NCBI RefSeq assembly: GCF_963665995.1
Contig: NZ_OY762512.1
Coordinates: forward strand, 3,472,001-3,536,000
Origin: Pleurocapsa sp. FMAR1
Lineage (GTDB): Bacteria > Cyanobacteriota > Cyanobacteriia > Cyanobacteriales > Xenococcaceae
Reading direction: 5' to 3'
DNA length: 64,000 bases
Notes under the pieces: model-generated
Told to the model about the DNA's origin: nothing
Seen by the model: the letters and a program-made list of their open reading frames with translations, nothing else
Databases searched by the model: none
Shown here: one piece after another, positions 1,541 to 41,056 of the stretch
How the letters are laid out: each line of letters opens with the position of its first letter
Position numbering within the stretch: the first letter of the stretch is position 1
Translations under genes and position numbers: made by a program

Positions 1541-2109
1541 TAGCCGTACCAAGTTAAATTAGCGGTGCGACCCCCTAAAGGGTTCGACAGTTTGACGGGC
1601 GGCATAAACGCCTGGGAAACCACAAAGCTTCGATTGGGTATGGCGAGGAAACCTCGCCACCCCTCTCGCTCAGGCGACGCGCCCTCCTTATGCCAGGAAA
1701 CCTTTTCGACACTTTGCTCAACGGGTCACAGACCCGCAACGCAAGTGTCTCACCACCGCAACTGTCTCACCGCGTCGACGTAAGAGGGCAGACCCCGCGT
1801 CGTCCGAAGGCGCAAGGGAATGCTGCCCTAGCAAGGGAACGCGCACCAAGACAGAACATATTTAAAGTTATTTGCTCGCAAGTAACAAGTAGATTCGAGA
1901 AAGGGGTACCCCCCGCATCTGCCCGCGTCGCCGACAGAGCGGGTGGAAACGGCTCCGTCCATGAGCCTGTCTTGAGACAGTTGTTCATGGGGGAAACCCC
2001 CAAGACCACACTGTCTCGCTGTTCCACACCCGAAGTTCAAGGGAACGCTCGAATCAGAGTAACGAGTAACGAGTTTTAAGAAATGTCTATCACGTTTACA
2101 CGTAATGCT
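1541..2109. repeat. Composite block of GC-rich hairpin repeats
   Basis: About 570 bp, visibly GC-richer than its surroundings, sit inside the glycosyltransferase frame. The block is a string of short palindromic modules: TGGCGAGG-aaa-CCTCGCC (1641-1658), CGGGTC-aca-GACCCG (1722-1736), the 43-bp element at 1786-1828, CTGTCTTGAGACAG (around 1970), GGGGGAAACCCCC (around 1990) and a heptamer run GTAACGAGTAACGAG near 2060. Several modules recur elsewhere: 1687-1703 is the exact reverse complement of 40843-40859, TTTGCTCAACGG recurs at 47628, and a TGCTCGYAAGTAACAAGTAG module recurs near 52530. ORFs inside it are by-products of GC-rich sequence. Confidence 0.8.
1786..1828. repeat. 43-bp covarying-arm repeat, copy A
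   Basis: The arms are GGGCAG (1786-1791) and CTGCCC (1823-1828), extended by an A/T pair. They flank a 31-bp core starting ACCCCGCGTCG and ending GGCGCAAGGGAATG. A right-hand half-copy follows (AGCAAGGGAACG, then CGCACCAAGACAG), and CCGCGTCGACGTAAG precedes it. This suggests that copy A inserted into the loop of an older copy. Confidence 0.85.
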
Positions 2110-2413
2110 GTATTAACTGAAGCAATGGCTTTTGGCAAGCCAGTTATCTGTTCTCAAGGTGCTAAAGCGGTAGAAATGATTGTTAATGGTGAAAATGGCT
2201 TTGTCTTCGATCCAGGGCGATCGTCAAAACTAGCTGAGTATATGGGTCAGTTTTTAGAAAATCCTCACTTAATTGAGGCTATGGGGAAAAAATCTGAAGA
2301 GATAATGATCGCTCACACACCAGCAAAAGCAACTCAATCTTTTATTCAAGCATTAAAATTTGTTATTAATTAAAGAGTAATCCGCTTCCAACTCTTTGAC
2401 CCAGTAACCAAAA

Positions 2414-3811
2414 CTATGAGGCTTTTGATTGATTGTCAATTGTCAAGGGTATACGGACTTGAAAGTTAGTTTTCCCTGGTTGTGACTCGAAACGCAAATT
2501 ACCTTGATGTTTTTGGATAATAATACGGCGAGAAATATCTAAACCCAAACCGCTTCCCTTGCCTACTTCTTTACTGGTAAAAAAAGGTTCAAAGATGCGG
2601 GACTGGATTTCGGAGGGAATTCCTGCACCATTATCAATAATTTCGATCAGCACACAGTTGTTTTCTAAGCCAGTGCGAATAGTTAGTTCACCTTTACCAT
2701 CCATGCCATCGATCGCATTATCAATTAGGTTTGTCCATACTTGATTGAGTTCACTACCGTAAGCTGAAATCTTGGGAATCTTGGTACTGTATTCTTTATT
2801 AACCTTAACGCCATACTTAATCTTGTGATGCAGAATCTTGAGGGTATTGTCCAACCCTTCATGGAGATCTATCTCTTGTACGGCAGCGCGATCCATATAG
2901 GAATAGTTTTTAATTGCCCCTACCAAGTCAGAGATGCGACTGGTGCTTTGTTCTACTTCATTTACTAAGCCATTCATTGTCAAAGTCGCTTCTAGCCAGA
3001 CTAACGCCTCACTAAAAGCCTCAGACTCCATGTCTTTAGCCAGGGTTTCTAATTGAGATGGCTGTATCCCAGCACTTACCAAGCTAGGTGACAACTCCCA
3101 GGCATTCTTTACTCCTTTATTTGCTAGCCAGTCTGTTAATTCATCTTCGAGATCGCTTTGTTCTAGAGGAGATAAAGTTGATTTGCTGTTTGCTTGAGCG
3201 ATCGCCTGCTGCTGTAATTCCCCCATTAGCTGACGATGATGGGCGGAAAAATGTTTACCCCGAAGCGAGAGCATATTCTGCTGTAGAGATGCGATCGCGA
3301 TGTTAAGTTGTTTTGCTGCCCTTCTGCCTGCTGCTGCGGGATTATTTAACTCATGAGCCAATCCTGCCGATAATTTGCCCAAAGCTGCTAATTTCTCTTG
3401 CTGACGCAGCCTTACTTCTAAATCCTTAGAACGTTCTGCCAAAGCTGGGACAAATAGATCGATACTGCGAGGACAGCCTTTAAGTAGTTCTTTAAAATCT
3501 TGAAACTGAATTACTCGACTAACATCAACACTACTAGCAGTTGCTTGGGCAACTCCTCCAGTCAACATACTTAAATCACCCGTAAACTCACCTCTATGGT
3601 GTAGAGTAACCACAATTTCTGATGCGCCTAACTGTTTGGTTACTTTTACTTGTCCTTTTAAAACTACATAGAAACAATAGGCGGCATCACCTTCACGATA
3701 TAAAATTTCCCCTGGCTTGAGATCTAAAGCTGTGCCACAAACTTCTAAATCTTGTAAATATTTTTCTTCTAAAATTGGGAAGAGAACTGAATCAGACAGC
3801 ATGGTATTCAT
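2414..3811 (-). CDS. Histidine kinase with N-terminal cyclic-nucleotide-binding domain
   Basis: The protein is 465 residues. Residues ~20-130 form a cNMP-binding (Crp-type) beta-roll with GEILYREGDAAYCFYVVLKG. A coiled linker leads to a HisKA-like helix with the phosphoacceptor in LAHELNNPAA (about 155). The C-terminus (about 340-455) is a HATPase domain with N box NLIDNAIDGM, G1 box DNGAGIP and G2 box GSGLGLDISRR. No membrane segment is present, so it is a cytoplasmic sensor. It presumably autophosphorylates in response to a cyclic nucleotide or redox signal. No response regulator adjoins it. The start could also be the Met at position 4. Architecture is clear; ligand and partner are unknown. 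Confidence 0.9.
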   Translation of the reverse strand: MNTMLSDSVLFPILEEKYLQDLEVCGTALDLKPGEILYREGDAAYCFYVVLKGQVKVTKQLGASEIVVTLHHRGEFTGDLSMLTGGVAQATASSVDVSRVIQFQDFKELLKGCPRSIDLFVPALAERSKDLEVRLRQQEKLAALGKLSAGLAHELNNPAAAGRRAAKQLNIAIASLQQNMLSLRGKHFSAHHRQLMGELQQQAIAQANSKSTLSPLEQSDLEDELTDWLANKGVKNAWELSPSLVSAGIQPSQLETLAKDMESEAFSEALVWLEATLTMNGLVNEVEQSTSRISDLVGAIKNYSYMDRAAVQEIDLHEGLDNTLKILHHKIKYGVKVNKEYSTKIPKISAYGSELNQVWTNLIDNAIDGMDGKGELTIRTGLENNCVLIEIIDNGAGIPSEIQSRIFEPFFTSKEVGKGSGLGLDISRRIIIQKHQGNLRFESQPGKTNFQVRIPLTIDNQSKAS

Positions 3812-3828
3812 AGTAATAATTACAATCT

Positions 3829-4005
3829 CTAAAAAATATTAGCTAAATCTAAAATAAAGCCAGGCAAGATATGATCACCAGATAATGTCTTTGGTGATTT
3901 TAATAACTGTACATCTTGTCCCAAAAGATAAATTTCTACTTGTTTAGCTTCAGGATTAATTAACCAACCCAGCTTGACTCCATTATCAAGATATTCTCTC
4001 ATCTT
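3829..4005 (-). pseudogene. Uma2-family endonuclease C-terminal remnant
   Basis: On the minus strand 58 codons read KMREYLDNGVKLGWLINPEA, then VEIYLLGQDVQ and LPGFILDLANIF before a stop at 3829-3831. This is the typical end of Uma2/DUF820 proteins (family pattern K..EYxxxGVxxxWLIDP, VxVY, LPGFxLxL). The first two thirds, including the catalytic Asp/Glu residues, are absent. Upstream is a hairpin-rich stretch (4012-4060, ATGCG-ACAAAGG paired with CCTTTGT-CGCAT). Uma2 genes are commonly multicopy and decaying in cyanobacteria. Confidence 0.7.
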
Positions 4006-4122
4006 GGCGCGTATATGCGGACAAAGGATCTATATGCGTGCAAGCCCTTTGTTCGCATTTCCTCGCTTCAAAGTAGATGCGGTTTAAATTAGTAGTTCAG
4101 GTCAGGCGTATAATATACTTAC

Positions 4123-4344
4123 TCAAACAGTTTGTAACATTCCTTGGAAAGTGTTAACCTCTGGCAAAGCTATACCTTCCTCAATAGAAGAAGCAATCAT
4201 TAACTGCAAGACCTCTTTACCATTACTAAGTGCTTCTTCGTAACTATCTCCATAGGTTTGACATTGTTCTCCCCACTCTGGAAAAGTAACCACGAAACAA
4301 CTATCTTTTTTAGACCACTGAATAACTATGCTGTAATTTAACAT
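4123..4344 (-). CDS. HicB-like antitoxin, orphan
   Basis: A 73-residue protein with the HicB fold signature: an N-terminal strand (YSIVIQWSKKDSCFVVTFPE), a turn WGEQCQTYGDSYEEALSNG, and a helix KEVLQLMIAS. HicB proteins are antitoxins with a degenerate RNase H fold that neutralise HicA mRNA interferases. There is no C-terminal DNA-binding domain, as in short cyanobacterial HicB forms. I see no HicA-like (about 60-80 aa, conserved His) frame within several hundred bases either side. It may be an orphan or may pair with a distant toxin. Confidence 0.75.
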   Translation of the reverse strand: MLNYSIVIQWSKKDSCFVVTFPEWGEQCQTYGDSYEEALSNGKEVLQLMIASSIEEGIALPEVNTFQGMLQTV

Positions 4345-4688
4345 TTTGATTTTGCCCCTCGATATTTTAGAAAGTCATAGATTATCTCAATTGGGTATAG
4401 CGAGAAAAAAATGCGGGCAAGCTTTTTGTCGCCACTCTTCTCGCTCAGGCAACGCGAACTTCTAAAATGTTTACTCAATCATAAATAAAGATTCTGAGAA
4501 CGTCATCTTTTAAAAATTCTGAGACTACTTTGAGATCCTGATATTAATTGTTTTGCGATCGCTTATCACAAGAAAAGCTATCAGATTCATCCAGACGTAC
4601 GTATATTAGTGCCTTGACTTACTATCTTAAACATCGAATAATACCTATTTTCTGAACTATCATTTATTCATTGTGCAACGCCTGCAGA
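4345..4688. other. Intergenic region with degenerate repeat
   Basis: No gene is supported here. Bases about 4393-4452 (GGGTATAGCGAG, then CTCTTCTCGCTCAGGCAACGCG) resemble the module at 1636-1680 in the repeat block (GGGTATGGCGAGG, then CCTCTCGCTCAGGCGACGCG), so this is probably a decayed copy. The remainder is AT-rich and unremarkable. Confidence 0.5.
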
Positions 4689-4955
4689 TTAATATCCTCT
4701 ATCTCTTTCTAAATCTCTAATTACTTTCTCATAATACCAAAGATAAGTTTGACCAGGATTTTTTTGACGAGCGTGTCTTAACAATCTTAAAGCAGCTTTT
4801 TTGTCGCCATTCAACATGATTAATAATTGCTTATCTAAACTCTTATCTAATTTGTGTTTAGGTTTTGCTTTTTTCTGCTTTTTAATTTCTCTTAATAAGA
4901 TGAAAATCAGCAAAGACAAGGTTATGAATATGACAACGATAAAAATATTGTCCAC
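4689..4955 (-). CDS. Conserved hypothetical single-pass membrane protein
   Basis: An 88-residue protein with one N-terminal membrane helix (residues ~4-22, FIVVIFITLSLLIFILL). A basic linker rich in Lys follows, then a soluble segment LLIMLNGDKKAALRLLRHARQ ending YEKVIRDLERDRGY. I recall the pattern of a helix plus a C-terminal W-Y-x-E-K-x-I-x-D-L-E-R-D tail as a family restricted to cyanobacteria, but no function is assigned. It lies alone, divergent from metH about 180 bp away. The combination of an acyl-like LxxHxxxKNP segment and a membrane anchor gives no functional clue. Confidence 0.7.
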   Translation of the reverse strand: MDNIFIVVIFITLSLLIFILLREIKKQKKAKPKHKLDKSLDKQLLIMLNGDKKAALRLLRHARQKNPGQTYLWYYEKVIRDLERDRGY

Positions 4956-5139
4956 AGCTTAATCTAATTTTGGAAACTAACTATCGATCTAATAATTCCC
5001 TCGTTTTAAGTAATAATTTCATTTTTTCTTTTATTTGACTTATTTGTTATTTGCCTAAAATAAATTTTCCCGTTTACTCAAAGAACTTCATATAATGGGA
5101 CTTAATGTAATTTAACCTGTTGATCAGCAGTCGCTAGCA

Positions 5140-8100
5140 ATGAACAGTATTTTTTTAGAACGTCTCCACAGTCCCAACCGTCCTGTTTTAGTTTTAGATG
5201 GCGCGATGGGAACCAACCTGCAAGTACAAAATCTCACTGCCGAAGATTTCGGTGGCGAAGCTTATGAAGGGTGCAATGAATATTTAGTCCATACCAAACC
5301 AGAAGCAGTAGCAAAAGTGCATCGAGGTTTCCTAGAAGCTGGTGCAGATGTTATTGAAACCGATACCTTTGGCGGAACTAAGTTAGTTTTGGCTGAATAT
5401 GATTTAGCAGATCAAGCTTACTATCTGAATAAAACCGCAGCGGAGTTAGCTAAAAAAGTTGCAGCCGAATTTTCCACTCCTGAAAAGCCACGTTTTGTTG
5501 CGGGTTCAATCGGTCCTGGTACTAAGTTACCTACTTTAGGACATATTGATTTTGATAGTTTAAAAGATGCTTACGTCGAACAAGCAGAAGCATTGTATGA
5601 CGGTGGGGTAGATTTACTATTGGTAGAAACTTGCCAAGATGTATTGCAGATCAAGGCAGCTTTAAACGCCATTGAAGAAGTATTTAAGAAAAAAGGCGCA
5701 AGACTTCCCCTAATGGTTTCAGTGACTATGGAACAGATGGGGACAATGCTAGTCGGCACAGAAATTGATGCAGCCTTAGCCATTTTAGAAAGATATCCTA
5801 TAGACATTCTTGGTCTGAACTGCGCTACAGGGCCCGATTTGATGAAGGAACACATCAAATATCTTTCAGAACACTCTCCTTTTGTAGTCTCTTGTGTTCC
5901 TAATGCTGGTTTGCCTGAAAACGTCGGCGGACAGGCACATTATAAGCTGACTCCAATGGAACTGCGCATGGCGTTGATGCACTTTGTTGAAGACTTGGGC
6001 GTACAGATAATTGGTGGTTGTTGTGGCACCAGGTTCGATCATATTCAAGCTTTAGCTGAGATGACAAGCGACTTAACCCCAAAAGAACGTCATCCTCATT
6101 ACGAACCTTCCGCTGCTTCTATATATAGTACTCAACCCTATATTCAAGATAATTCTTTCCTAATTGTAGGCGAGAGACTCAACGCCAGTGGTTCTAAGCA
6201 ATGTCGTACTTTACTCAATGACGAAGACTGGGATAGTTTAGTCTCTTTGGCTAAGTCTCAGGTAAAGGAAGGGGCGCATATTCTCGATGTCAATGTAGAC
6301 TACGTGGGACGAGACGGGGAGAAAGATATGCACGAACTAGCATCTCGTCTGGTTAACAACGTGACATTACCTCTGATGCTTGACTCCACTGAGTACACGA
6401 AGATGGAGGCAGGGTTAAAGGTTGCAGGTGGTAAATGTATTCTTAACTCCACCAACTACGAAGATGGAGAAGAAAGATTTTATCAGGTATTAGATTTAGC
6501 TAAAAGATATGGCGCAGGAATAGTAATTGGTACTATCGATGAAGATGGTATGGGTCGTACCGCAGACAAAAAGTTTGAGATTGCCAAACGTGCTTATGAT
6601 GCAGCAATAGCCTATGGTATCCCTGCCCAAGAAATCTTTTTTGACCCTTTAGCTTTGCCTGTTTCTACAGGTATTGAAGAAGATCGAGAAAATGGTAAAG
6701 CTACCGTCCTAGCAACCAAAAGAATTCGAGAAGAGTTACCTGGTTGTCATGTTCTTCTAGGGGTATCTAATGTTTCCTTTGGTTTAAACCTTGCTTCTAG
6801 ACAAGTATTAAATTCAGTTTTCTTGCATGAATGTATGCAGGTAGGATTAGACTCAGCGATTGTTAATCCCAGTAAAATTTTACCTCTAGCTAAAATCGAT
6901 CCCAAACATCAAAAAATCTGTTACGACTTAATTTATGACAAGCGAGAGTTTGATGGCGATATCTGTACCTACGATCCTTTAGGTGAATTAACTACTCTAT
7001 TTGCAGGCAAGAAAATTAAAAAGTCCGAAGCAGTAGATAAGAACCTTCCTATAGAAGAACGTCTCAAACAACACATTATCGATGGAGAACGTATTGGTTT
7101 AGACGAGGCTTTAGATGAGGCTTTGCAACAGTATCCACCGTTAGATATTGTCAACATCTTTCTGCTAGATGGCATGAAAGTTGTTGGTGAGTTATTTGGT
7201 TCAGGACAGATGCAGCTACCGTTTGTACTTCAGTCGGCGCAAACCATGAAAGCAGCAGTGGCGCATCTCGAACCTCATATGGACAAAGAGGCCGACGACA
7301 GCGGTAAGGGTAAATTCGTCATTGCCACGGTAAAAGGTGATGTTCACGATATTGGTAAAAATCTAGTTGATATTATTCTCTCTAATAATGGTTATAAAGT
7401 AATCAACCTGGGTATTAAACAGCCTATAGAGAATATTATCCAAGCTTACAAAGAACACCAGCCCGACTGCATCGCCATGAGTGGCTTACTGGTGAAATCA
7501 ACGGCATTTATGAAAGATAATCTAGAAACTTTTAATCAAAAAGGTATTAGTGTTCCCGTTATCTTGGGTGGTGCAGCTTTAACTCCTAAGTTTGTTTATC
7601 AGGATTGTCAAAATGTCTATAAAGGTAAGGTTATCTATGGCAAGGATGCTTTTGCGGATTTACACTTTATGGATAAGTTGATGCCCGCTAAAGTAGAGCA
7701 TAACTGGGATGATCTCAAAGGGTTCTTAAATGAAGAGGATTTGTCAGCCATAGAAGAAGGTGAGGCAAAACCATTTGAGGGAGAAAACCAAGATAAAATC
7801 TTTGTCGATGAGGTTAGTAGAAAAGAAGAACCAAAAGTAATAGATACAAAGCGTTCTGAAGACGTGGCTTTAGATATCGATCGCCCTACTCCTCCTTTTT
7901 GGGGTACAAAGATCTTAAGATCTGAAGATATTCCCTTAAATGAAATCTTTCCTTATTTAGATTTACAGGCTTTATATGTAGGACAGTGGCAGTTCCGTAA
8001 GCCCAAAGAACAGTCACGAGAAGATTATAATGAGTTTTTAGCTAGAAAAGTTGAGCCAGTTTTAGAAGAGTGGAAACAAAGAATTATTGCCGATAATTTA

Positions 8101-8691
8101 TTACAACCCACCATAATTTACGGTTATTTTCCTTGTAACGCTGAAGGAAATACACTGCATATTTATAAACCTACCGATAAGGGATTCGTCAAACCTGCAA
8201 CCTCGTTTGAATTTCCGCGTCAACGTTCTGGCAAACGTCTTTGTATCGCGGATTTCTTTGCTACTAAAGAATCTGGACACATAGATGTCTTTCCTATGCA
8301 GGCGGTAACTGTAGGAGAAGTCGCCACCGAATATGCCCAAAAGCTATTTAAAGCTGATAATTATACCGACTATCTCTATTATCACGGCATGGCAGTACAG
8401 ATGGCAGAAGCCTTGGCAGAATGGACACACGCTAGAATCCGCAACGAACTAGGTTTTGCAGCCGAAGAATCAGACAATATTCGCGACATCCTGCAACAGC
8501 GTTATCGAGGTTCACGCTATAGTTTTGGCTATCCTGCTTGTCCTAATATTGAGGATCAATACAAGCAACTGGATTTACTGGATACGAAGCGAATTAATAT
8601 GTTCATGGATGAAAGCGAACAGCTATATCCTGAACAATCTACCACGGCAATTATTACTTATCATCCCTCTGCTAGATACTTTAGTACTTAA
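5140..8691 (+). CDS. metH: Cobalamin-dependent methionine synthase
   Basis: The protein is 1183 residues, full length for MetH. It transfers a methyl group from 5-methyltetrahydrofolate through cobalamin to homocysteine. The homocysteine domain (1-310) opens with [10 protein letters not shown] and carries zinc cysteines in LGLNCATGP (about 228) and GGCCGT (about 292). The folate (pterin-binding) domain begins at [13 protein letters not shown]. The B12 cap domain precedes the cobalamin signature DVHDIGKN (about 734-741), whose His is the lower axial ligand, with GLLVKST and GGAALT following. The C-terminal third is the SAM-binding reactivation domain. A good terminator follows at 8716. No cobalamin riboswitch is evident in the 180 bp upstream. 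Confidence 0.98.
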
Positions 8692-8715
8692 TTGATTTTA
8701 TTAATTGTTTATTTG

Positions 8716-8742
8716 GGTGGGTTTTATGCCCATCTTTTTTTT
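8716..8742 (+). terminator. Intrinsic terminator of metH
   Basis: GGTGGG (8716-8721) pairs with CCCATC (8729-8734), with one G-U wobble and a 7-nt loop, followed by eight T. It lies 25 bp past the metH stop. Confidence 0.8.
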
Positions 8743-8754
8743 GTCTCGCGCAAA

Positions 8755-8881
8755 GGGTAGTGTAGTCAAAGTGTTGATAAACTATAGATAGATATGTAAA
8801 AGTAGTTGCTCCCTAAAACATTAATAAAGGATGTTGATTGAATGACGGTTTTGATTAATTCAACATCTTTGCTACACCACC
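8755..8881. mobile_element. MITE derived from the IS1-family element at 59.8 kb
   Basis: This 127-bp sequence has imperfect terminal inverted repeats: GGTAGTGTAGTCAAAGTGTTGA on the left, and the reverse complement of the right end reads GGTGGTGTAGCAAAGATGTTGA. Its first ~95 bp match, in reverse complement and almost base for base, 60656-60561, which is the transposase-proximal end of the IS1-family element. Its last ~30 bp match that element's other end (59813-59842). It is therefore an internally deleted, non-autonomous copy that retains both ends and no coding sequence. Confidence 0.85.
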
Positions 8882-13512: not shown

Positions 13513-13523
13513 TTTAATTAATA

Positions 13524-31482: not shown

Positions 31483-31900
31483 GTTACAAATTTCTCCTGT
31501 ATTTAAAGTTACAGATATAGTTTACAGCAGCTTTCAATTGTATGGACTACGTTTTTAATTAACTGGTTTTAGCTATCAGCTATTAGCTTTTAGCTATTAG
31601 CTTCTTGACACAATAGCTCTATGAGACAAAGGCGCACTTCCGCATGTGACCCTCACCGCGAGAGTGGAATAGCGGTGAGAGCCCGCGTCGACGCAAGGCG
31701 CAAGGGAATGCTGACCTAGCAAGGGAATGCTCACCAAGACAGCCCTTTAACTCAGGGCGTCAGTTGCGGCTAAAGCCTTACTTCTCGCAAAGACCGCTTT
31801 ATGTCGCTTTTGAGATAAAGTTAATGTGTTCTACTCAAATAAAAAGCGTAGTAAGTTCTAATCTTGTAATTCTACTTTGAAAGTAAAATATTATAATCCT
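31483..31900. other. Repeat-rich intergenic region
   Basis: No gene is supported. At about 31565-31605, AGCTATTAGCTTTTAGCTATTAGCTT is a short tandem of an AGCTATT-like unit. CTCACCGC (31652) pairs with GCGGTGAG (31672). The degenerate 43-bp repeat copy B and its half-copy occupy 31674-31735. The rest up to the P450 stop is featureless. Confidence 0.6.
31674..31735. repeat. 43-bp covarying-arm repeat, copy B with extra half-copy
   Basis: The left arm GGTGAG (31674-31679) and the 31-bp core (31680-31710) are followed by CTGACC, one mismatch from the expected arm. A second right half follows (AGCAAGGGAATG, then CTCACC at 31730-31735), which matches the left arm perfectly. The flanks TAGC and AAGACAG are shared with copies C and D. 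Copy A has the same doubled right half. Confidence 0.75.
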
Positions 31901-33382
31901 TCAGGTATGCTTGGCGATCGCCATACTTTTGGCAATCTGACTGCGTTTGCCGTTTAAAATTAAAGGAACACCATTATCAGGAGCAATTGTAGCACCGCGA
32001 CGCTTAGGAAGAATAGAGCGATCGCTGGTTAAGCTCAAATCCCATCCTGTTAGGATTTTGGCTAGGACTAATTTCATTTCCAGTAAAGCCAGAGCATAGC
32101 CGATACAACGACGATTACCGCCACCAAAAGGCAAAAATTCATAGGTTGAATAGCGGTGAGACCCCGCGCCGCCGACAGGCGCAAGGGAACGCTCACCAAG
32201 ACATTGACGCTCTAAAAACCGTTCTGGCTTGAATTGCTTGGGTTCAGGATATAAATCTTGCCGATGATGAGTTAAGTAAATAGTTGGTGCGAGCATTTCT
32301 TCTGGGTTAAACTGATGCCCCATAACTTTAATCGGCGATTTGGCAAACCGTAAAAAAGCAATAAATGCCACGGGATAAATCCTTAGAGTTTCATTGCATA
32401 CAGCAGTTAAATAGGGCAGGCGAGAGATTGTCAAAAGATCGGCATCAGAATCCAAACTATCCAATTCTGCTAGTAACTTTTGTTTGACTTCTGGTAGCTT
32501 ATGAACCCAATACAAAGCCCATGACAAAGCTGTAGCAGTAGTTTCATGTCCTGCTACCAAAAGAGTCATCATCTGATCCTTTAGCTCAATGTTATTTAAG
32601 CCTTCTCCTTGTTCATCGCGGGCAGACATCAATAAACTGAGAACGTCGTTACCTAATAATTCTGGATTAGCTCGTCTCTCGTCAATTTCAGCTTGTAATA
32701 ACTCGTAAATTTTGCGCTTGCGTCTTACAACCTTACCCCAAGGACTCCACTCACCCAAATCCCGCTGTAAAAAAGGTAAAAAGATGACGCTAGCTTTAAT
32801 TGGAGAACCTGTTAAGTCTAATAACTCAATTAACGGGGGTTTAATTTGCTTGTAGCGATGCGACCCCGCGTCGCCGTCAGGCGCAAGGGAACGCGCATCA
32901 AGACAGCGTTCTCCTTCACTTAACCCAAAAACAACGTGCATAATTGTCTCTAAGGTAATATCCTGCATTGCCTTTTGAGCCACAAAAGTTGATTTTTCTT
33001 GCCATTGATTTGCTACTTTTTCAGTAATTTGACCAATAGTTTCGGCGTAAGACTTGACCTTTTCGCCATGAAAAGGAGGCATCATTAACTTGCGCTGTCG
33101 GCGATGCTGTAAACCGTCTAGCAAAACTAACGAGTTGTCGCCCAGCAAACTGGCAGCTAAATTGTTAGTACGTCCTACATCAAATTGTTTAGCATCTACG
33201 CTCAAGATTTCTTCAATTCCTTGAGGATCGCTGACTACGGTAAAAGGCGGTAAGCCCATTAAATTTAAACTAAATGTATCTCCATACTTTCTGGCACATT
33301 CTTCCAAAAAATCAAGGGGACGAAAAATCCAGTTCATTAACTGCACAAATGGCGAACTTTGAGGCCCGTTTAAGGATTTCAT
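31901..33382 (-). CDS. CYP110-like cytochrome P450 with two repeat-encoded insertions
   Basis: 493 residues. P450 landmarks are the I-helix AGHETTATALSW, the K-helix ETLRIYP (ExxR), PERFLER and the haem loop FLPFGGGNRRCIGYALA (Cys at about 426). N-terminal FRPLDFLEECARKYGDTFSL resembles CYP110, a cyanobacterial family associated with fatty-acid or terpenoid oxidation. Two 17-residue stretches have no place in the fold: CLDARSLAPDGDAGSHR (about 160-176, between GLSEGER and YKQIK) and CLGERSLAPVGGAGSHR (about 394-410, between ERQ and YSTYEF). Removing both gives 459 residues, the usual length. Each is a 51-bp in-frame copy of the dispersed repeat. The second precedes the haem loop by 12 residues. 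Confidence 0.93.
   Translation of the reverse strand: MKSLNGPQSSPFVQLMNWIFRPLDFLEECARKYGDTFSLNLMGLPPFTVVSDPQGIEEILSVDAKQFDVGRTNNLAASLLGDNSLVLLDGLQHRRQRKLMMPPFHGEKVKSYAETIGQITEKVANQWQEKSTFVAQKAMQDITLETIMHVVFGLSEGERCLDARSLAPDGDAGSHRYKQIKPPLIELLDLTGSPIKASVIFLPFLQRDLGEWSPWGKVVRRKRKIYELLQAEIDERRANPELLGNDVLSLLMSARDEQGEGLNNIELKDQMMTLLVAGHETTATALSWALYWVHKLPEVKQKLLAELDSLDSDADLLTISRLPYLTAVCNETLRIYPVAFIAFLRFAKSPIKVMGHQFNPEEMLAPTIYLTHHRQDLYPEPKQFKPERFLERQCLGERSLAPVGGAGSHRYSTYEFLPFGGGNRRCIGYALALLEMKLVLAKILTGWDLSLTSDRSILPKRRGATIAPDNGVPLILNGKRSQIAKSMAIAKHT
32155..32197. repeat. 43-bp covarying-arm repeat, copy C (inside P450)
   Basis: The arms are GGTGAG (32155-32160) and CTCACC (32192-32197) around a 31-bp core starting ACCCCGCGCCGCC. 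The inserted unit in the gene is 32153-32203 (51 bp), read on the minus strand as 17 codons. Confidence 0.9.
32857..32899. repeat. 43-bp covarying-arm repeat, copy D (inside P450)
   Basis: The arms are GATGCG (32857-32862) and CGCATC (32894-32899) around a core starting ACCCCGCGTCGCC. The inserted unit is 32855-32905 (51 bp). It differs from copy C at 6 of 51 positions, four of which are two compensatory pairs in the arms. Confidence 0.9.
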
Positions 33383-33478: not shown

Positions 33479-34681
33479 ATGAAAATTGCCTTATTCACCT
33501 ATTCTACCAAACCTAGAGGTAGTGTAATTCATACTTTAGAATTAGGAGAGGCACTGCAAGCAGAAGGTCATCAAGTTTGCATATATGCTTTAGACAAAGA
33601 TAATCTTGGCTTTCATCGTTCTGTGAACTGTTCCAGTAAATTAGTCCCAACTAAACCCGTAGCCGAGAAGCTATTGTTGCAGAGAAAACAAAAATATTTC
33701 CAAGGTAAAAGAGAAGACAGGGACTTAGATCCTGTAGACGAACTAATTAAACAGAGAATACAAGAGTTTATTAATTATTTAACTCAAGAATCTGAAAAAT
33801 ACGATATTTATCACTCTCAAGACTGTATTAGTGCCAATGCTTTGAAGGTCTTGCGAGACAAAGGAACGATTTCTCATTTTATTCGTACCGTACACCATAT
33901 TGATGAGTTTAATAGTCCATATTTACAAGCGTGTCACGATCGCTCTATTTTAGAACCAGATTTGCGTTTGTGTGTCTCAAACTATTGGCAGCAGCAATTA
34001 CAACAACAGTATCAAGTAAACGCACCAGTAATCATAAACGGTGTTGATACCAAAAGATTTTCTAACAAGGTTAATGGTGAAGAAGCTAAGTTAAGACAGC
34101 AATTAAATATTCAAGGTAATCCTGTTTACTTAACTATCGGAGGAATTGAACCTCGTAAAAATTCCTTGAAACTATTACAAGCTTTTATTGAGATATTAAA
34201 AACTCATCCTCAAGCACAGCTAATTATCGCTGGTGGAGAAACTCTATTTGATTATGAACCTTATCGCCTTGAGTTTTTCAACCTAGCAAAACAAAATAAG
34301 ATTAAGATTGGAGAATCTCTAATTCTACCTGGAGTGATGGCAGATAAAGACATCTCAGTTTTATATCGCTGTGCTGATGCCTTTGTCTTTCCCTCAATTA
34401 AAGAAGGCTGGGGACTGGTATTATTAGAAGCGATCGCTTCAGGATTGCCCATAATTACCTCTAATATTCCTCCCTTCACCGAATTTCTAGACGATAAATC
34501 AGCTTTACTTGTAGATCCTAATTCAAGTAAAGATATTGCGCTCGCCATACTTGATATATTAAATAAAAACCTGACTCAAAAACTAATCAGCAACAGCGCA
34601 AATATCCCCTCTCGATACTCCTGGCAAAAATCGGCACAAATGCACCTAAAACATTACACCAAACTATTACAAAATCATTAA
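33479..34681 (+). CDS. Glycosyltransferase, MSMEG_0565-like GT4 family
   Basis: 400 residues. The N-terminus MKIALFTYSTKPRGSVIHTL and LGEALQAEGHQVCIYAL are typical of the MSMEG_0565 glycosyltransferase group. The C-terminal GT-B half shows TIGGIEPRKNSLKLLQAF, LPGVMADKDISVLYRCADAFVFP and the donor-binding E-x7-E in KEGWGLVLLEAIASGLP. In mycobacteria and some cyanobacteria this family sits in a nitrogen-starvation (Nit1) cluster with a nitrilase, radical SAM protein, acyltransferase and an MSMEG_0570 protein. Here only the MSMEG_0570-like gene follows, 67 bp downstream. Product unknown. Confidence 0.85.
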   Translation: MKIALFTYSTKPRGSVIHTLELGEALQAEGHQVCIYALDKDNLGFHRSVNCSSKLVPTKPVAEKLLLQRKQKYFQGKREDRDLDPVDELIKQRIQEFINYLTQESEKYDIYHSQDCISANALKVLRDKGTISHFIRTVHHIDEFNSPYLQACHDRSILEPDLRLCVSNYWQQQLQQQYQVNAPVIINGVDTKRFSNKVNGEEAKLRQQLNIQGNPVYLTIGGIEPRKNSLKLLQAFIEILKTHPQAQLIIAGGETLFDYEPYRLEFFNLAKQNKIKIGESLILPGVMADKDISVLYRCADAFVFPSIKEGWGLVLLEAIASGLPIITSNIPPFTEFLDDKSALLVDPNSSKDIALAILDILNKNLTQKLISNSANIPSRYSWQKSAQMHLKHYTKLLQNH

Positions 34682-34748
34682 CCTTCTTACTCCCCGCGAG
34701 AAAGGTGTAATCGCCGCATCTAGTACCCCTTGGCTACTTCTTTAAACT

Positions 34749-35036
34749 ATGCCTGAAATCAACTTTCAAATACAATGGCCAGACGGCACACAGCAAAGCT
34801 GTTATTCTCCTTCTTTGGTGGTAAAACAATACTTTACTCCTGGAGAAGAATACCAATTAACAGAGTTTGTGGAAAAATCCCGTACTGCCCTTAATATTGC
34901 CAGCGATCGCGTCCAAAAAGCTTATGGTTTTCCCTGTAGCCGCGCCTTGGGACAACTAAAACAAATAGAATCTAAAGCGTCTGAATATCAAAAGCTATCC
35001 GCACCAAAAGTGCTGTTTATAGACTTTGAGGAATAG
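34749..35036 (+). CDS. MSMEG_0570-family nitrogen starvation response protein
   Basis: 95 residues: MPEINFQIQWPDGTQQSCYS, then PSLVVKQYFTPGEEYQL, ALNIASDRVQKAYGFPCSRA and GQLKQIESKA. This matches the short MSMEG_0570 family, whose hallmarks are the FxIxWPDG opening and the KYGFxCSxAxxQL segment, with the conserved Cys. The family is named for its genomic context with nitrogen-starvation genes and has no established biochemical role. Pairing with the MSMEG_0565-like glycosyltransferase supports both calls. Confidence 0.8.
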   Translation: MPEINFQIQWPDGTQQSCYSPSLVVKQYFTPGEEYQLTEFVEKSRTALNIASDRVQKAYGFPCSRALGQLKQIESKASEYQKLSAPKVLFIDFEE

Positions 35037-35091
35037 TGGCGATAAATTTCGCTCAAGGCAGATATTGAATATAATTGACTTCTTCTTGCCA

Positions 35092-35217
35092 ATGCCCAAA
35101 ATGGTAATATTTGCCTGTTTTAAATCTTTCCCGCAAATTTTTGTGCCGTTACTCCTTCTTTTCGCCCTCGCAGCAATATTATTTAAGTTAGGCAGAAAAG
35201 CGTTAGAAGGGAATTAG
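35092..35217 (+). CDS. Possible small single-helix membrane protein (41 aa)
   Basis: The 41-codon frame from ATG 35092 reads MPKMVIFACFKSFPQIFVPL, then LLLFALAAILFKLGRKALEG. One strong membrane helix is followed by a basic tail. A longer frame from a TTG at 35026 would overlap the previous gene by 11 bp and adds a polar, less protein-like N-terminus, so I prefer the later start. No Shine-Dalgarno is convincing. Confidence 0.3.
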   Translation: MPKMVIFACFKSFPQIFVPLLLLFALAAILFKLGRKALEGN

Positions 35218-35291
35218 GTTTTTATCAAAAAAATCCTGGTTGGTCTTGGAAATGCTGGAAATATTGGAGGCTGTATTCAAACAATTCAAGC

Positions 35292-36587
35292 TTAAATTAG
35301 TCCACTGCTGGGGGGTTTAAAAGATTCTCCAGGACTTTTATTCTCAGAAGGATTAAATTTGGCAGACTTGGAAGAAAAAATGTTCTTCTGTCTAACAATA
35401 TTTTGATAAGAACTGGAAACAGACTTTAGCCAAGATATACGAGAAGGAATAGGAGCGCGAGCGGGTTTTAATCCCTGAAGCACGTCTGATAGCTGCAACC
35501 CTTCTAAAGGCTTGGCTTCCTTGATTTTGTGCCACACAGAGCGAGACATTAACAAAGTATGCTCGGCAGAAATTGCGCCTATTTTATTAAAGTATTCTTC
35601 TCTTTCTGGTTGATAGTCAGCAGAAACTATTTCTAACGGTTGAGCATAAAATTGGTTTTCAGGAGCCAAACCCTGTTTTCGCTCCACAGATTTCTGAACT
35701 ATCTGCGCCATCTGCGCCGTCAGCTTCGGATACAGCCATGTATAGGCAGGGTTGACGGTTAATTGCGCCCGATGAGGACGAGAACCATCTTTAGAGGATT
35801 CTAGTCGAAAATAGCCAATTGCTGCTTTTCTTTGTGGTTCAAAAACATACCCGCTAACTACATCCGTGCCGTTAAGCCAATGTCGAATCTGACTAACTGC
35901 ATTTTGAACTATGCTGCTTTTAAAATCTTCTGCGTGGCGGTCAAAAACTTGCCGTAGTAGCGGAGGCATAGAAACACAATCTAGCTGATAAAGTAATGGT
36001 GCATCCGCATTACTTATAGGCAGAAAATTGGGTAAGTCTGGATTTTGCTGTGCCAATTGAGTGATTAGTTCAGCTGATATTTGCCAGTACGTCATTTGAG
36101 CTAAAGGCTGAAAACCATTTTCTCGATAAAGAGCCAAATGATTTTTTTCATTCACGTTTACCTCTAGCATCCATGTCCTTGCTTCCCAAATGTTTTGCAA
36201 ACAATGACGTAATAACTGCGAACCAATTTCTTTTTGGGTTTTGAGTAACTCCACTTCAGAAGAGTTGCTATTGAGCAATACCCTTTCTACTCTCCAAGTG
36301 CTACGAGTGCTGTTAAGAGAAGCAACCTGGATCAAACCTAGAACTTCTTCTAAATATTGAGCTACATATACTCGCCAACCATGATAATAAGAACGAGGTA
36401 AAAGACTCAAAAACCTTTTTAGTCCGTACCAAGAACCTACTTGTTCTAGTTCCCTATCGATAGTTATAAGACGCTTTGAAGTTTCTTTGGCAACACATTC
36501 GCTCACCAAAGCATTAATTGCATCCACATCACGATATTGAAGAGGACGAACTATAAGCTGTTCATTATTAGGTATGGATGAAGTCAT
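35292..36587 (-). CDS. GNAT-family N-acetyltransferase, cyanobacterial type
   Basis: 431 residues. Residues ~10-170 form a GNAT fold (LIVRPLQYRDVDAINALVSE at the start, VAQYLEEVLGLIQVASL as the beta4 strand, QLLRHCLQNIWEARTWMLEV, then NHLALYRENGFQPLAQMTYW, the usual alpha4-beta6 close). The C-terminal half contains a second diverged domain (LPISNADAPLLYQLD onwards) and a disordered Ser/Pro tail. Double-domain GNATs of this type are common in cyanobacteria with unknown acceptors. The gene directly precedes nothing on its strand, but the 91-aa DNA-binding-like gene lies 9 bp upstream, so the two form an operon. Confidence 0.82.
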   Translation of the reverse strand: MTSSIPNNEQLIVRPLQYRDVDAINALVSECVAKETSKRLITIDRELEQVGSWYGLKRFLSLLPRSYYHGWRVYVAQYLEEVLGLIQVASLNSTRSTWRVERVLLNSNSSEVELLKTQKEIGSQLLRHCLQNIWEARTWMLEVNVNEKNHLALYRENGFQPLAQMTYWQISAELITQLAQQNPDLPNFLPISNADAPLLYQLDCVSMPPLLRQVFDRHAEDFKSSIVQNAVSQIRHWLNGTDVVSGYVFEPQRKAAIGYFRLESSKDGSRPHRAQLTVNPAYTWLYPKLTAQMAQIVQKSVERKQGLAPENQFYAQPLEIVSADYQPEREEYFNKIGAISAEHTLLMSRSVWHKIKEAKPLEGLQLSDVLQGLKPARAPIPSRISWLKSVSSSYQNIVRQKNIFSSKSAKFNPSENKSPGESFKPPSSGLI

Positions 36588-36596
36588 GATTTTTTG

Positions 36597-36872
36597 TTAA
36601 TCAACCCTTTCTAACTGCCACAAAATTTGATTTCCTTCTCGTCTGACTCTAGATACAACCCAATTGCGCCATGACCAATGATCGCCTCTGCTAGTTACAG
36701 CACTGGCATTAATATCCATTAAGTCTGCAAGCTCGGAACTGCTGATGAGATAACCTTTACTAGCTATTTCTTCAGCGATTCTGAGAGTGTCAATTAAATC
36801 TCTTAATTGAGGTACTCTTTCCTCGCTTGATGTTCTGGTTTCTTCCATTGTACTGTTTGATAATTCAGTCAT
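36597..36872 (-). CDS. Conserved hypothetical, winged-helix-like
   Basis: 91 residues. A polar Ser/Thr/Glu-rich head is followed by RDLIDTLRIAEEIASKGYLI, SSSELADLMDINASAVTSRG and WSWRNWVVSRVRREGNQILW. The middle is a plausible helix-turn-helix (SELADLMDINASAVTSRG) and the W-W-x-V-x-R-V-R segment looks like a wing. It is the first gene of a two-gene unit with the GNAT protein downstream (9-bp gap). I know it as a cyanobacterial family of unknown function; DNA binding is inferred from the pattern only. Confidence 0.7.
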   Translation of the reverse strand: MTELSNSTMEETRTSSEERVPQLRDLIDTLRIAEEIASKGYLISSSELADLMDINASAVTSRGDHWSWRNWVVSRVRREGNQILWQLERVD

Positions 36873-36972
36873 AGCTAGCTAGATTTCAAATATCTAATGA
36901 TTAGTTCTGAAGATGAAAGTACATCTTACGGATAATAAAGTGTATCTCATAACTTGATTACCGTCATCTTAG

Positions 36973-38424
36973 CTAATTTGAACGAGAGTTATCTGCTACT
37001 AGGTTAATATATCTTGAACGTGCTGGTTGAAAATCAGGCTTGATTTCTAAAGATTTTTCATAGCTGACAATTGCTTCTGACCAATATTCTAGTTGTTCTA
37101 ATCCGCAACCGCGATTGTACCAAAACAAATGATTGGCTGGCATGAGCTTGAGAGCATTGTTCCAGCTAATAATTGCTTCTGACCAATATTCTAGTTGATA
37201 TAAAGCATGAGCGCGATCGTTCCAAGCTTGATAATTATTAGGATCGATAGTCAGAGCGTTTTGGAAAGACGCGATCGCAGACTCATAATCACCTAAACGT
37301 CCCAAGGCACTGCCGCGATTGTGCCAGGCTTCTGACAAATTGGGGTTAATTTGTAAAGCCTTTTCCCAAGAAGCGATCGCTTTAGTGAATTCTCCTGCAC
37401 TAACCTGCTTTAGCCCCAAATCAAACCAGCTTTCAATTAGCTCTATACTAGCAGAATCTAAATTATTGGTTTGTATCGTCTGGGATTGCTCTTGCGTTGA
37501 GTTGTCTAACTTTACCAGAGAAATATTTAGTTTTTGAGATATTTGCTGTGCCAATTCTTTGTCTTTTTGAATTAAGCTGATTAGTTGCTGTATATCAATA
37601 GCTTCAGCCTCGTCCTCTTTTTGAGGCTCGACAATTGATGATAAATCTGCTGCTGATAAATTGGAATCTGCTGTTAAGCTTAAATCTAAAGGTTTGTTTT
37701 CAGATGTATTGGATTTTGCCTCTGGGGATAAATTTAATTTTCGCTCATCAGTAAAAGTTTCCAAGGCTTGAGAGACTGGCAATGTTTCACTTACCAGAGA
37801 GGCTGTCTTGGCAAAGAAATCCTCAGCAGTAGATACTGCTTGCTCATCTTTAACTGTGGGATTAAAAGCTAAATTAGTTTCAGCATCATTAGGAATAGAT
37901 AAACCTAGTGCCGTAAAATCAGTAGGTAATCGGTTAGACAGATCTTGCTCTGTTTCTACTTCAGAGTCGTCATCTGTTATATCAGAACCAACATATTCCC
38001 AAATAAGATCTTCTATATTGCCAAATAATAATTCTCTGCCAATGTGGTTAGAGATCGCGCCAATCTGCTTGACTTCTGGGGCAGATTGAGTCAGTTCGCC
38101 AAGACGAATCATCATTGTTCCTAATTGACGCTTAGACTCGATTGGCAGAGCCAATACTTTAGTTCGTAGACGCTCTAGCCAAACAACCCAATCTTCTTGG
38201 TTACCGCGATCGCCTAACTGGTTAAAAAATTTAACAATTCTGTGATCGTGCCAGCCATGGGCAATTCCTTCTAATAGTTGATTAAATAAAAATTCGTAAT
38301 CAGCATCCGCCAGAGAAGAGATAGGTGTCTTATCTTCAGGCTTGGGCGAGTCTTGGCTAGTCTCCGAAGCCTTAGAGTTTGGCTGTTGATTGTTTTGTTG
38401 GAGTTGTCCGATCGTATGACTCAT
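36973..38424 (-). CDS. TPR-repeat protein
   Basis: 483 residues. The N-terminal half is a helical domain (FNQLLEGIAHGWHDHRIVKF, then LGTMMIRLGELTQSAPEVKQ) followed by a long, acidic, poorly conserved linker. The C-terminus (about 325-475) holds four tetratricopeptide repeats, e.g. AWHNRGSALGRLGDYESAIA and AWNDRAHALYQLEYWSEAII. The last two repeats are nearly identical at DNA level (AATTGCTTCTGACCAATATTCTAG occurs twice, about 37068 and 37163), indicating recent duplication. It probably scaffolds protein complexes; partners are unknown. Confidence 0.85.
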   Translation of the reverse strand: MSHTIGQLQQNNQQPNSKASETSQDSPKPEDKTPISSLADADYEFLFNQLLEGIAHGWHDHRIVKFFNQLGDRGNQEDWVVWLERLRTKVLALPIESKRQLGTMMIRLGELTQSAPEVKQIGAISNHIGRELLFGNIEDLIWEYVGSDITDDDSEVETEQDLSNRLPTDFTALGLSIPNDAETNLAFNPTVKDEQAVSTAEDFFAKTASLVSETLPVSQALETFTDERKLNLSPEAKSNTSENKPLDLSLTADSNLSAADLSSIVEPQKEDEAEAIDIQQLISLIQKDKELAQQISQKLNISLVKLDNSTQEQSQTIQTNNLDSASIELIESWFDLGLKQVSAGEFTKAIASWEKALQINPNLSEAWHNRGSALGRLGDYESAIASFQNALTIDPNNYQAWNDRAHALYQLEYWSEAIISWNNALKLMPANHLFWYNRGCGLEQLEYWSEAIVSYEKSLEIKPDFQPARSRYINLVADNSRSN

Positions 38425-38608
38425 TACCTTAGATCAAATATACTGATTTTAAGAGTTAACACCACCCTGCGGTGAAGCCAAACTAATTTCATTTAAAGTT
38501 AACAGTTCTTTAACAGAACGGCATTGCTTTGAGCCAGCTAAATATTGCTCAATTGCACAGAGATAATTTTCTAGTAATTAGTGGAAAGCCAAAAAATCCA
38601 CATATAAT

Positions 38609-40732
38609 ATGCCTTACGAACCTCTTCATCACAAGTACCGACCACAAACTTTTAAAGATTTAGTAGGTCAAGAGACGATCTCCTTGACCCTCAGCAATGC
38701 TTTAAAACAGGAAAAAATTGCTCCAGCATATTTATTTACCGGGCCTAGAGGAACGGGTAAAACCTCTAGTGCTAGAATTTTAGCGAAATCTTTAAATTGT
38801 TTAAATAGCAATCAGCCAACTCCTGAACCCTGTGGGGAGTGTGAAGCCTGTTTGGCGATCGCCAAAGGTTCGGCGTTAGACGTGATGGAAATTGATGCTG
38901 CTAGTAACACAGGAGTTGATAACATTCGCGAAATTATCGAGCGATCGCGCTTTGCGCCCGTGCAGTGTCGTTATAAAATTTATGCGATCGATGAATGCCA
39001 TATGCTCAGTACGGCAGCGTTCAATGCTTTACTCAAGACCTTAGAAGAACCACCTCCAAAGGTAGTTTTTATCTTAGCTACCACCGATCCTCAGCGAGTT
39101 CTCTCGACGATTATTTCTCGTTGTCAGAGGTTTGATTATCGCCGTATTCCCTTGCCAGAAATGATTAGACATTTAAAGTATATTGCTGGGGAAGAAGATA
39201 TTGCGATCGCCGATGATGCGATCGCTTTAATTGCCCAAATTGCTAATGGTGGCTTAAGAGATGCTGAAAGTCTTTTGGATCAGCTAAGTCTATTACCAGA
39301 AGAAATTTCTGTAGCCAAAGTATGGGATCTTGTCGGGGCTGTACCCGAACAAGATTTATTAAAATTACTTCAGGTAATTAAGGGTAATGATTCTTTGGCA
39401 GTATTACAGCAGTGTCGTAGTCTCTTAGATCGAGGACGAGAACCCATAATCGTCTTGCAGAATCTAGCTAGTTTTTATCTCAACTTACTAATTGCCAAAA
39501 CTGCCCCGCAGCGTCCAGATATGGTGGCAGTTACCGAAACCTGTTGGCAACAATTGTGTACTGAAGCGACAAATTGGAACACCCCTGTAATTTTAGTTGG
39601 GCAACAACACTTAAAAGAAGCAGAAACCCAGCTAAAGCATACTACTCAGCCTCGTTTATGGTTAGAAGTAACCTTATTAGGACTATTACCGAGTGCCAAT
39701 CAAATTGTTAGTCAGCCTCTAGACGTAATTAAAGTCCCAGTTAATCCTCCTGCAAACATCCAATCTCAGTCAACACCTACTCAAAAGAACACTACTAGCT
39801 CTGATACCGCTGCGTCGCCAGAAGTTACAGAAACAAAACCTTCAGCTACAGAACCTACAGAGATAAGCAAACAAATACCAAGTGAAGTTGCATCTTCTTC
39901 ACCTTATCCTGAATCAAATAAGGTTGTCGATCCGCCACCTGCTATTGTTGAACCCACACCAAAGCCATCATCATCAAGTCCTGAATTAATCACCAATGAT
40001 CTTGCCAAAAATAAAGAAATCTGGAGCAAGGTTGTGAGTTGTTTGCAACCACCTACAACTCAGGCACTTTTAAAACAACAGTGTTATTTAGTTGACTTTG
40101 ATGATTCAAGTGCCATCGTGGGCATTAGTTCTGCAAAATTACAAAAACTTAATCAAGGTAAAGTTCCTAATATTGAAGCTGCTTTTGCTCAGGTTTGCCA
40201 ACGTAAGATTAAGGTTCAGTTAGAAGTTGCTACCCCTAAAGATAGCCTCGCACAAAATTCGGCTACACCAAAAGATAATAAGCCACTTCAAACATCTCAA
40301 CCCGCTCCAGATTTAGCTAATTCTCGCTCAGAAAAAAAATCCATCGCACCGCAGCCTGAAGTAAATTTAACGGTAGCTAAAAATTTTCCCAATCATAAGC
40401 CAGAATTTCCCAAGTCCGAAGCAAACATTGCTGTAGTAACACCTTCTTCATCAACGAGTGATTTACAGTCTGCTAAGAAAGATTCTGTTTCGTCATCTCC
40501 TCTAGCTAAATTGGAAGAAACAATAGCTGCAAATCCTTTACTTGAGCAAAATTTAAACAGTGATTATACGGACGATCATTTACAGCAGGCAATAGATAGT
40601 CTGACTCAAAGTTTTGAAGGTGAATTAGTGAAAATGGATAATGCTCAGGAGGAATTTTTAGACGATGAAGAAATATCAGAATTACCAGAAGCAGGTAGAC
40701 CAAATGTAGAAGATTATGACGACGAATGGTAA
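38609..40732 (+). CDS. dnaX: DNA polymerase III subunits gamma and tau
   Basis: 707 residues. The AAA+ clamp-loader domain starts with YRPQTFKDLVGQETI and shows Walker A GPRGTGKTSSARIL (about 45-58), a zinc module with CxxC pairs (about 64-82, CGECEAC), Walker B AIDECHML and the sensor 1/arginine-finger region ATTDPQRVLSTIISRCQRF. Residues ~375-470 and ~545-640 are Ser/Pro/Thr-rich linkers around a small conserved block (EIWSKVVSCLQPPTTQALLK). It loads the sliding clamp at the replication fork. Some cyanobacterial dnaX genes carry inteins; this one does not. The acidic tail ends DDEW. Confidence 0.95.
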   Translation: MPYEPLHHKYRPQTFKDLVGQETISLTLSNALKQEKIAPAYLFTGPRGTGKTSSARILAKSLNCLNSNQPTPEPCGECEACLAIAKGSALDVMEIDAASNTGVDNIREIIERSRFAPVQCRYKIYAIDECHMLSTAAFNALLKTLEEPPPKVVFILATTDPQRVLSTIISRCQRFDYRRIPLPEMIRHLKYIAGEEDIAIADDAIALIAQIANGGLRDAESLLDQLSLLPEEISVAKVWDLVGAVPEQDLLKLLQVIKGNDSLAVLQQCRSLLDRGREPIIVLQNLASFYLNLLIAKTAPQRPDMVAVTETCWQQLCTEATNWNTPVILVGQQHLKEAETQLKHTTQPRLWLEVTLLGLLPSANQIVSQPLDVIKVPVNPPANIQSQSTPTQKNTTSSDTAASPEVTETKPSATEPTEISKQIPSEVASSSPYPESNKVVDPPPAIVEPTPKPSSSSPELITNDLAKNKEIWSKVVSCLQPPTTQALLKQQCYLVDFDDSSAIVGISSAKLQKLNQGKVPNIEAAFAQVCQRKIKVQLEVATPKDSLAQNSATPKDNKPLQTSQPAPDLANSRSEKKSIAPQPEVNLTVAKNFPNHKPEFPKSEANIAVVTPSSSTSDLQSAKKDSVSSSPLAKLEETIAANPLLEQNLNSDYTDDHLQQAIDSLTQSFEGELVKMDNAQEEFLDDEEISELPEAGRPNVEDYDDEW

Positions 40733-41056
40733 ATAGTTTCTTGGCTGATTAAAGTTTTTAGCTTAATTGGTAAAAAGGCGTTGCTGATTTAAAGTATGAA
40801 ACTGATAGTAATACTGTTCGTAGTAAAGCAGTTGCGGTGGACAGGTTTCCTGGCATAAGCAAACTGAGGAAAGACCCCGCGTCGCCTGAAGGCGCAAGGG
40901 AATGCTTTCCGATGCTGAACCCGAAGGGTTTTAAGCTTTAAGCTCTAAGCTTTTAAATACAGCCCAGAAAACTTATAAATGCGATTCTCATACCTCGATC
41001 CAGCAACGCCGCTCAAAAATAAATTATTCAAAAATAAAGTGTAAAGAACAAAAACA
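40733..41056. other. Intergenic repeat cluster
   Basis: No gene. AGGTTTCCTGGCATAAG (40843-40859) is the exact reverse complement of 1687-1703 in the glycosyltransferase insertion block. It is followed immediately by the 43-bp element copy E, so two repeat modules co-occur at both loci. TTTTAAGCTTTAAGCTCTAAGC (about 40930) resembles the AGCT-rich runs at 31570 and 52660. Confidence 0.6.
40868..40910. repeat. 43-bp covarying-arm repeat, copy E
   Basis: The arms are GGAAAG (40868-40873) and CTTTCC (40905-40910) around a core starting ACCCCGCGTCGCC and ending GGCGCAAGGGAATG. It is intergenic, between dnaX and the SDR gene, and lacks the TAGC/AAGACA flanks of copies B-D. Confidence 0.9.

Follow-up and report, generated by a model that had tools for sequence, protein, structure and literature searches.

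A family of very small palindromic elements with covarying arms, some inserted in frame in protein genes, in Pleurocapsa sp. FMAR1

Results

A 43-bp hairpin at the centre of a longer inserted unit

We analyzed a 64,000-nt window of the Pleurocapsa sp. FMAR1 genome (G000:C1:3472001-3536000; G000 is this host genome), in which a short palindrome recurs within a cytochrome P450 gene, between genes and inside other copies of itself (Table 1). The original prediction had described four 43-bp copies and a degenerate fifth, and we found all five where it placed them, with the arms that it gave. Its 43-bp hairpin is the center of a longer, small mobile palindromic element. The hairpin itself therefore stands, while as a mobile unit the 43 bp fall short: the unit measures 51 bp for copies C and D and 48 bp for class Q, to which copy E belongs. 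Two of the copies are in-frame protein-coding insertions, the unit is mobile and copies nest, none of which had been foreseen.

Read in core orientation, the class-P unit consists of GC, a 6-nt arm, A, CCCC, GCGNC, a 7-nt loop, GNCGC, AA, GGG, AAYG, the second 6-nt arm and AAGANN. As RNA, the element strand folds as a single hairpin, and so does its complement. An alternative core with a TTTTTAA loop was seen once.

Table 1. Copies of the element and their host gene in the window (the outer element around copy A and the structure of copy B are sequence readings)
Feature	Position in window	Strand	Description
Outer element around copy A	1767..1853	+	left half TCACCGCGTCGACGTAAG; right half GCAAGGGAACG-CGCACC-AAGACA
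Copy A	1786..1828	+	class N, arms GGGCAG/CTGCCC; nested within the loop of another element
Copy B	31672..31741	+	apparent nested class-P pair with internal deletion
Host gene of copies C and D	31901..33382	-	cytochrome P450 open reading frame, 493 aa
Copy C	32153..32203	+	51-bp class P: GC + GGTGAG + 31-nt core + CTCACC + AAGACA; in-frame insert CLGERSLAPVGGAGSHR in the P450 gene
Copy D	32855..32905	+	51-bp class P, arms GATGCG/CGCATC; in-frame insert CLDARSLAPDGDAGSHR in the same P450 gene
Copy E	40867..40914	+	class Q, arms GGAAAG/CTTTCC; intergenic, between two open reading frames

Empty sites define the inserted length

Two P450 orthologues (L117, L118) lack both copies C and D and show 17-residue gaps that are exact 51-bp gaps in the nucleotide alignment. 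The site of copy C was empty in the P450 genes of L117, L118, L119, L130 and L131, and copy D added a net 51 bp compared to L137. A search with all 115 located copies returned 21 candidate empty sites. The net insertion was 51 bp at four, all of class P (3504161, 3504863, 3989698, 5231122), 48 bp at three (2976277 and 3411034, class Q; 4056958, class U) and 45 bp at three (4962184, class R; 1373181, class S, at low identity; 4122073, a nested class N). Separate alignments gave 51 bp at 3929841, 3989698 and 136811. By analogy with the empty sites of class Q (48 bp at 2 of 4, 47 and 50 bp at the others), copy E is probably 48 bp long.

No fixed target duplication was seen at the empty sites examined. 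By reading, and with few sites per class, the flank bases shared were one (classes P and R), two (Q) or three (U). At the D-Ala-D-Ala ligase (Ddl; L049, L195) and OprB (L099, L179) sites, the insert seems to take the place of one codon found in uninserted genes, as if about two target bases had been lost. The original prediction had allowed that the arms might be written from the target. This did not hold, because the arms are missing from the empty sites of both orthologues and paralogues; identical arms also occur at unrelated sites.

The arms vary together

Six Watson-Crick pairs were present in 57 of 94 distinct copies of the host genome (mean 5.8, maximum 15 after re-dealing the 3' arms; 1000 re-deals) and in 76 of 97 copies filed as relatives (re-dealt mean 9.3, maximum 19); these tallies count some host-genome copies (L116, L129) among the relatives. 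Arms were not perfect in the other 37 and 21 copies, respectively. Across classes we counted 28 distinct perfect arm pairs, two arm types with one G-U pair and eight with one mismatch, besides types with more mismatches.

For class P, we assembled 50 distinct copies (19 from the host genome, 31 from other genomes) with the core and ends fixed and the arms unconstrained. Of 300 arm cells, which count sequences, 299 were Watson-Crick, one was unpaired and none was G-U; all six pairs were intact in 49 of the 50 copies. This sample held 12 perfect arm types, and all 49 changes of its arms were two-sided. The inner-stem pair 17-27 was U-A in 21 copies, U-G in 18 and C-G in 11 (n = 50). Sliding the partners by 1-3 columns lowered the paired cells from 99.9% to at most 48.4%. 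Among five whole-structure measures, one was matched by 9 of 500 shuffles and the other four by none of 500. The re-dealt-arm counts and the class-P pairing strongly support the claim with which the analysis began, a conserved core with variable but complementary arms.

Judging from their sequences, the imperfect copies are largely recombinants that join the left half of one class to the right half of another. Two imperfect classes recur: CGAGCG/CGCGAG with tandem G-A, found in several genomes, and GATGCG/CGCACC with an apparent one-base bulge. We set aside a comparison of arm decay with core decay, which is biased by ascertainment and by recombinants.

Copies lie in frame inside conserved protein genes

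Besides the P450, in-frame hosts in the host genome were Ddl, a CobN-type chelatase, SufD and TnpB, and in relatives ribonucleotide reductase and a class-I tRNA synthetase. In-frame inserts added 15-17 residues at the sites measured. We translated 13 host-genome open reading frames (ORFs) around copies and submitted 10 to Pfam; copies beyond these ORFs were listed by open frame alone. All 10 had Pfam matches at E <= 0.001, and nine exceeded the cut-off (CobN/Mg-chelatase, polyketide synthase, chorismate-binding enzyme, D-Ala-D-Ala ligase, TnpB, SufBD, 23S-IVP, UPF0102 and PIN), with the DDE transposase falling below it. The loci filed as relatives held 92 distinct copies (some of them from the host genome, L116/L129). 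We listed their 34 longest open frames and submitted 10, all of which exceeded the cut-off: polyketide synthase, ribonucleotide reductase, class-I tRNA synthetase, Mg-chelatase, protein kinase, Ddl, TnpB, alpha/beta hydrolase, OprB porin and Uma2.

The core fell within the matched domain stretch in 3 of the 10 host-genome ORFs (CobN, DDE, PIN) and in 7 of the 10 relative-filed ORFs (polyketide synthase, ribonucleotide reductase, tRNA synthetase, kinase, Ddl, hydrolase, Uma2). The remaining cores lay between domains, at a domain edge or outside. The 13 host-genome ORFs use five of the six frames and a relative ORF (L109) uses the sixth, which is within what composition allows.

In a structure model of the P450 (mean pLDDT 80.6), the two inserts (residues 160-176 and 394-410) had no secondary structure. 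The pLDDT was under 50 in residues 155-172 and 393-410, and also in the non-insert residues 419-426 and 485-492. The model fits inserts extruded as loops, although it does not prove them.

The same codons are filled in different genomes

Of 12 same-genus relatives, 11 gave an alignment that spans the Ddl site (L252 did not), and all 11 lacked the insert (net 45 bp). Among 25 family genomes read, two carried it, the host genome and G024, which belong to different genera and have it at the identical codon. Recent transfer of the gene between these two is unlikely, because the identity of the Ddl flanks between them (56% and 76%) is below that between the host and its own genus (74-84% and 80-87%). 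The codon of copy C was also filled, by a copy of its own, in a diverged P450 of G003 (L120; 46% identity), and in Uma2 an identical codon was filled in G024 and G026. Such recurrence could mean that the element prefers certain targets, that selection tolerates it at these sites, or that the insertions are old and have been lost repeatedly.

Copies nest inside other copies

At several sites of the host genome, copies lie in the loops of other copies. Copy B appears to be a nested pair with an internal deletion, as it has two right halves and one left arm; it is a net 20 bp longer than an un-nested paralogue with identical flanks (L129).

Three further arrangements were noted. Ten copies (L039, L040, L051, L063, L067, L075, two in L081, L082, L084) have near-identical flanks and carry a class-P element into which another insert has gone; these flanks are probably one repeated insertion sequence (IS). 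At 2201334 and 1643823 of the host genome, two left halves of different classes are fused head to head, as if recombined at the palindrome center. Tiny palindromes of about 20-27 nt, AAAGGCTTTAGCCGCATGT and AAAGGACTTGTCCGCATCT, lie inside the core or adjoin a copy at 2207106 (L053) and 927924 (L044); the SDR repeats of Nostoc are said to be similar in size.

The family is abundant in the host genome and patchy elsewhere

In the window, the core half GGCGCAAGGGAAYG matched 13 times at <= 3 mismatches (mean 4.84, largest 11 in 100 shuffles). The original prediction had proposed a search of the whole genome and its relatives. This search found 126 cores at <= 3 mismatches in the 5.43-Mb host genome, compared to none for the reversed pattern, and cores at <= 2 mismatches in 38 of 100 genomes including the host, i.e. 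in 37 of 99 relatives, with arm complementarity far above the re-dealt expectation. With a somewhat wider pattern, 115 copies with flanks were located in 1.23 Mb of host-genome stretches.

The host belongs to the same genus as Chondrocystis NIES-4102. Another member, G004, is probably Pleurocapsales LEGE 10410; the two P450 loci are 100% identical over 4,340 bases. Matching plasmid coordinates suggest that a third, G008, is Chondrocystis NIES-4102 itself. A 53-nt query of the element matched 4 of 72,556 plasmid records, from Stanieria and Chondrocystis only; three of these four overlap annotated genes by position, reading frame aside. Relatives with copies at annotated genes include Stanieria PCC 7437 and Chondrocystis NIES-4102. 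Phage records gave no match to the element. Rfam did not match it in the five loci scanned, which is weak evidence as Rfam holds described families only. A Guanidine-I riboswitch (Rfam RF00442) was found at L001:2-134 of the host genome, ~1.4 kb from one copy. Literature searches, with most subscription papers outside their reach, did not find a description of the element, and among the matches listed for short element strings in paper texts, no title concerned cyanobacteria.

Discussion

Our data suggest, at a probability of roughly 70%, that these copies belong to one family of palindromic mobile elements that are very small and non-autonomous, are moved in trans and need a paired arm helix. 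Each copy carries a 31-nt structured core, 6-nt complementary arms and short class-specific ends. It inserts as a unit (51, 48 or 45 bp where the empty sites were cleaner) into intergenic DNA, the loops of other copies, IS genes and other protein genes. The insertions, their lengths, the in-frame hosts, the nesting and the covariation of the arms are direct observations. An enzyme encoded by the host or by an IS would move copies in trans and require a fully Watson-Crick arm helix, such that only perfectly paired copies found new lineages. This requirement would explain why the arms differ by lineage while arm mismatches are almost absent from intact copies. The inserts may persist because proteins tolerate them as loops, and not through selection on the peptide.

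Several observations weigh against this interpretation. The class-P sample was chosen on an intact core and thus consists of young copies, which alone favors intact arms, and its 300 arm cells are counts of sequences, not of events. Selection for coding was not seen, with ~4.7 of 6 frames free of stops in copies and in shuffled 51-mers alike. The other 11 of the 21 candidate empty sites gave 15, 18, 18, 20, 47, 50, 54, 55, 58, 59 and 71 bp. By our own reading these odd lengths come from repeats, from nesting or misjoining, or from poor alignment, except for the 54 bp in a transposase gene (4381359) and the 47 and 50 bp, which are class-Q sites. Separate alignments also gave 52 bp at 3873568 and a net 44/45 bp for class N. 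A mobilizer was not found: counts of Y1-transposase genes were unrelated to copy number (cores at <= 2 mismatches), with 7 genes and 95 cores in the host genome, 27 and 8 in G010, 18 and 1 in G008, and 43 and 12 in G015. We considered a lagging-strand (HUH-type) insertion bias and rejected it; all located copies, judged by eye and without a test statistic, showed no orientation pattern around dnaA (1.66 Mb), and G+C skew in the fetched stretches was too weak for defining replichores. A same-strand run among copies with no mismatch vanished when all located copies were included.

The pattern of arm changes could also arise if the second arm were copied from the first, either when fold-back (snap-back) synthesis accompanies each movement or when replication switches template at the quasi-palindrome. 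The 49 two-sided and no one-sided changes in 300 cells speak for such rewriting, as they occur while the inner pair is U-G in 18 of 50 copies, and template switching has been discussed as maintaining perfect coding palindromes in Nematomorpha mitochondria (PMC6649704, in the accessible part of that paper). However, the class-P sample held just 12 perfect arm types, the widespread ones may be old lineages, and a simple filter likewise predicts that young copies are perfect. Decayed copies with mismatched arms exist, so any arm repair is inconstant. Arm rewriting is an unlikely explanation. Similarly doubtful is its stronger form, in which each movement passes through a fold-back intermediate and one arm serves as template for the other, so that structure rather than a fixed sequence is copied, together with repeated landing on the same codon (Ddl, in two genera).

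A hairpin that is selected as RNA and moves by way of an RNA intermediate is improbable to a similar degree. Elhai and co-workers reportedly proposed such movement for the SDR elements. The inner-stem pair tolerates U-G, the tandem G-A class recurs in several genomes, and the element strand folds as one hairpin as RNA, although its complement does so equally. RNA helices normally show some G-U pairs, whereas the arms had none in 300 cells; the missing Rfam match in the five scanned loci counts weakly in the same direction. A regulatory or terminator hairpin kept for its function and not mobile would account for the stable fold and for the copies between ORFs, copy E among them, but is very improbable because of the precise empty sites, and given the nesting and the in-frame positions within enzymes on either strand.

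Among known systems, the Rickettsia palindromic elements (RPEs) come closest. The original prediction knew of no described element with this property, which was too strong a statement: RPEs, of about 105-150 bp, lie in frame in Rickettsia genes, according to the accessible text of two papers (PMC2229807, PMC10969869). As described there, RPEs and the present copies are both palindromic and dispersed, occupy intergenic positions and in-frame positions within conserved protein genes, and form several families per genome. By description rather than by sequence, they differ in that the net insertion here is 45-51 bp and the host belongs to a different phylum. Judging by a paper title alone, protein-coding palindromes of Wolbachia are of the same kind.

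The element also resembles miniature inverted-repeat transposable elements such as Nezha in being non-autonomous, palindromic and dispersed. It differs in having no consistent target duplication, in that a parent IS was not found, and in being far under their 70-300 bp (PMC3733652, accessible part). The SDRs of Nostoc, said to have been described by Elhai and co-workers in 2008, are reportedly 21-27 nt long, nested in themselves, and share a predicted fold with compensatory changes; their reported nesting and compensatory changes also count against the statement that no such element had been described. By this description, both groups are cyanobacterial, very small and nested, with 45-51 bp and in-frame coding insertions setting the present family apart. 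In the available portion of another report, SDR5 inserts precisely within HIP1 (PMC4390886).

REP/REPIN sequences are small palindromes for which movement in trans by a Y1 transposase has been proposed (PMC3116915, as far as its accessible text goes). Unlike them, the element has no GTAG/CGTC tag at the foot of its helix; the class-P ends are GC and AAGA, which are part of the selection pattern, and the other classes were judged by eye. Three of five Y1 genes examined, out of seven in the host genome, had no core copy within about 3 kb, including the one in L299. The copies near the Y1 genes of L301 and L044 lie in or near IS605-type genes, a reading made partly by eye. The Y1 gene at L299:3041-3526 adjoins three copies of a different palindrome, CCAGGGAATAAATTCCCCGTCTGA, at about 3600-4000, and is possibly a RAYT with its own REP.

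In-frame palindromic mobile DNA in enzymes is presented as a Rickettsia feature in reviews, to the extent that their text was accessible. Here, free-living cyanobacteria show in-frame palindromes whose unit is less than half as long as an RPE, in Ddl, ribonucleotide reductase and a tRNA synthetase, with several clean empty sites. They are a tractable case for studying how small insertions turn into loops of proteins, and the paired change of their arms provides a test of structure-based copying of a mobile element.

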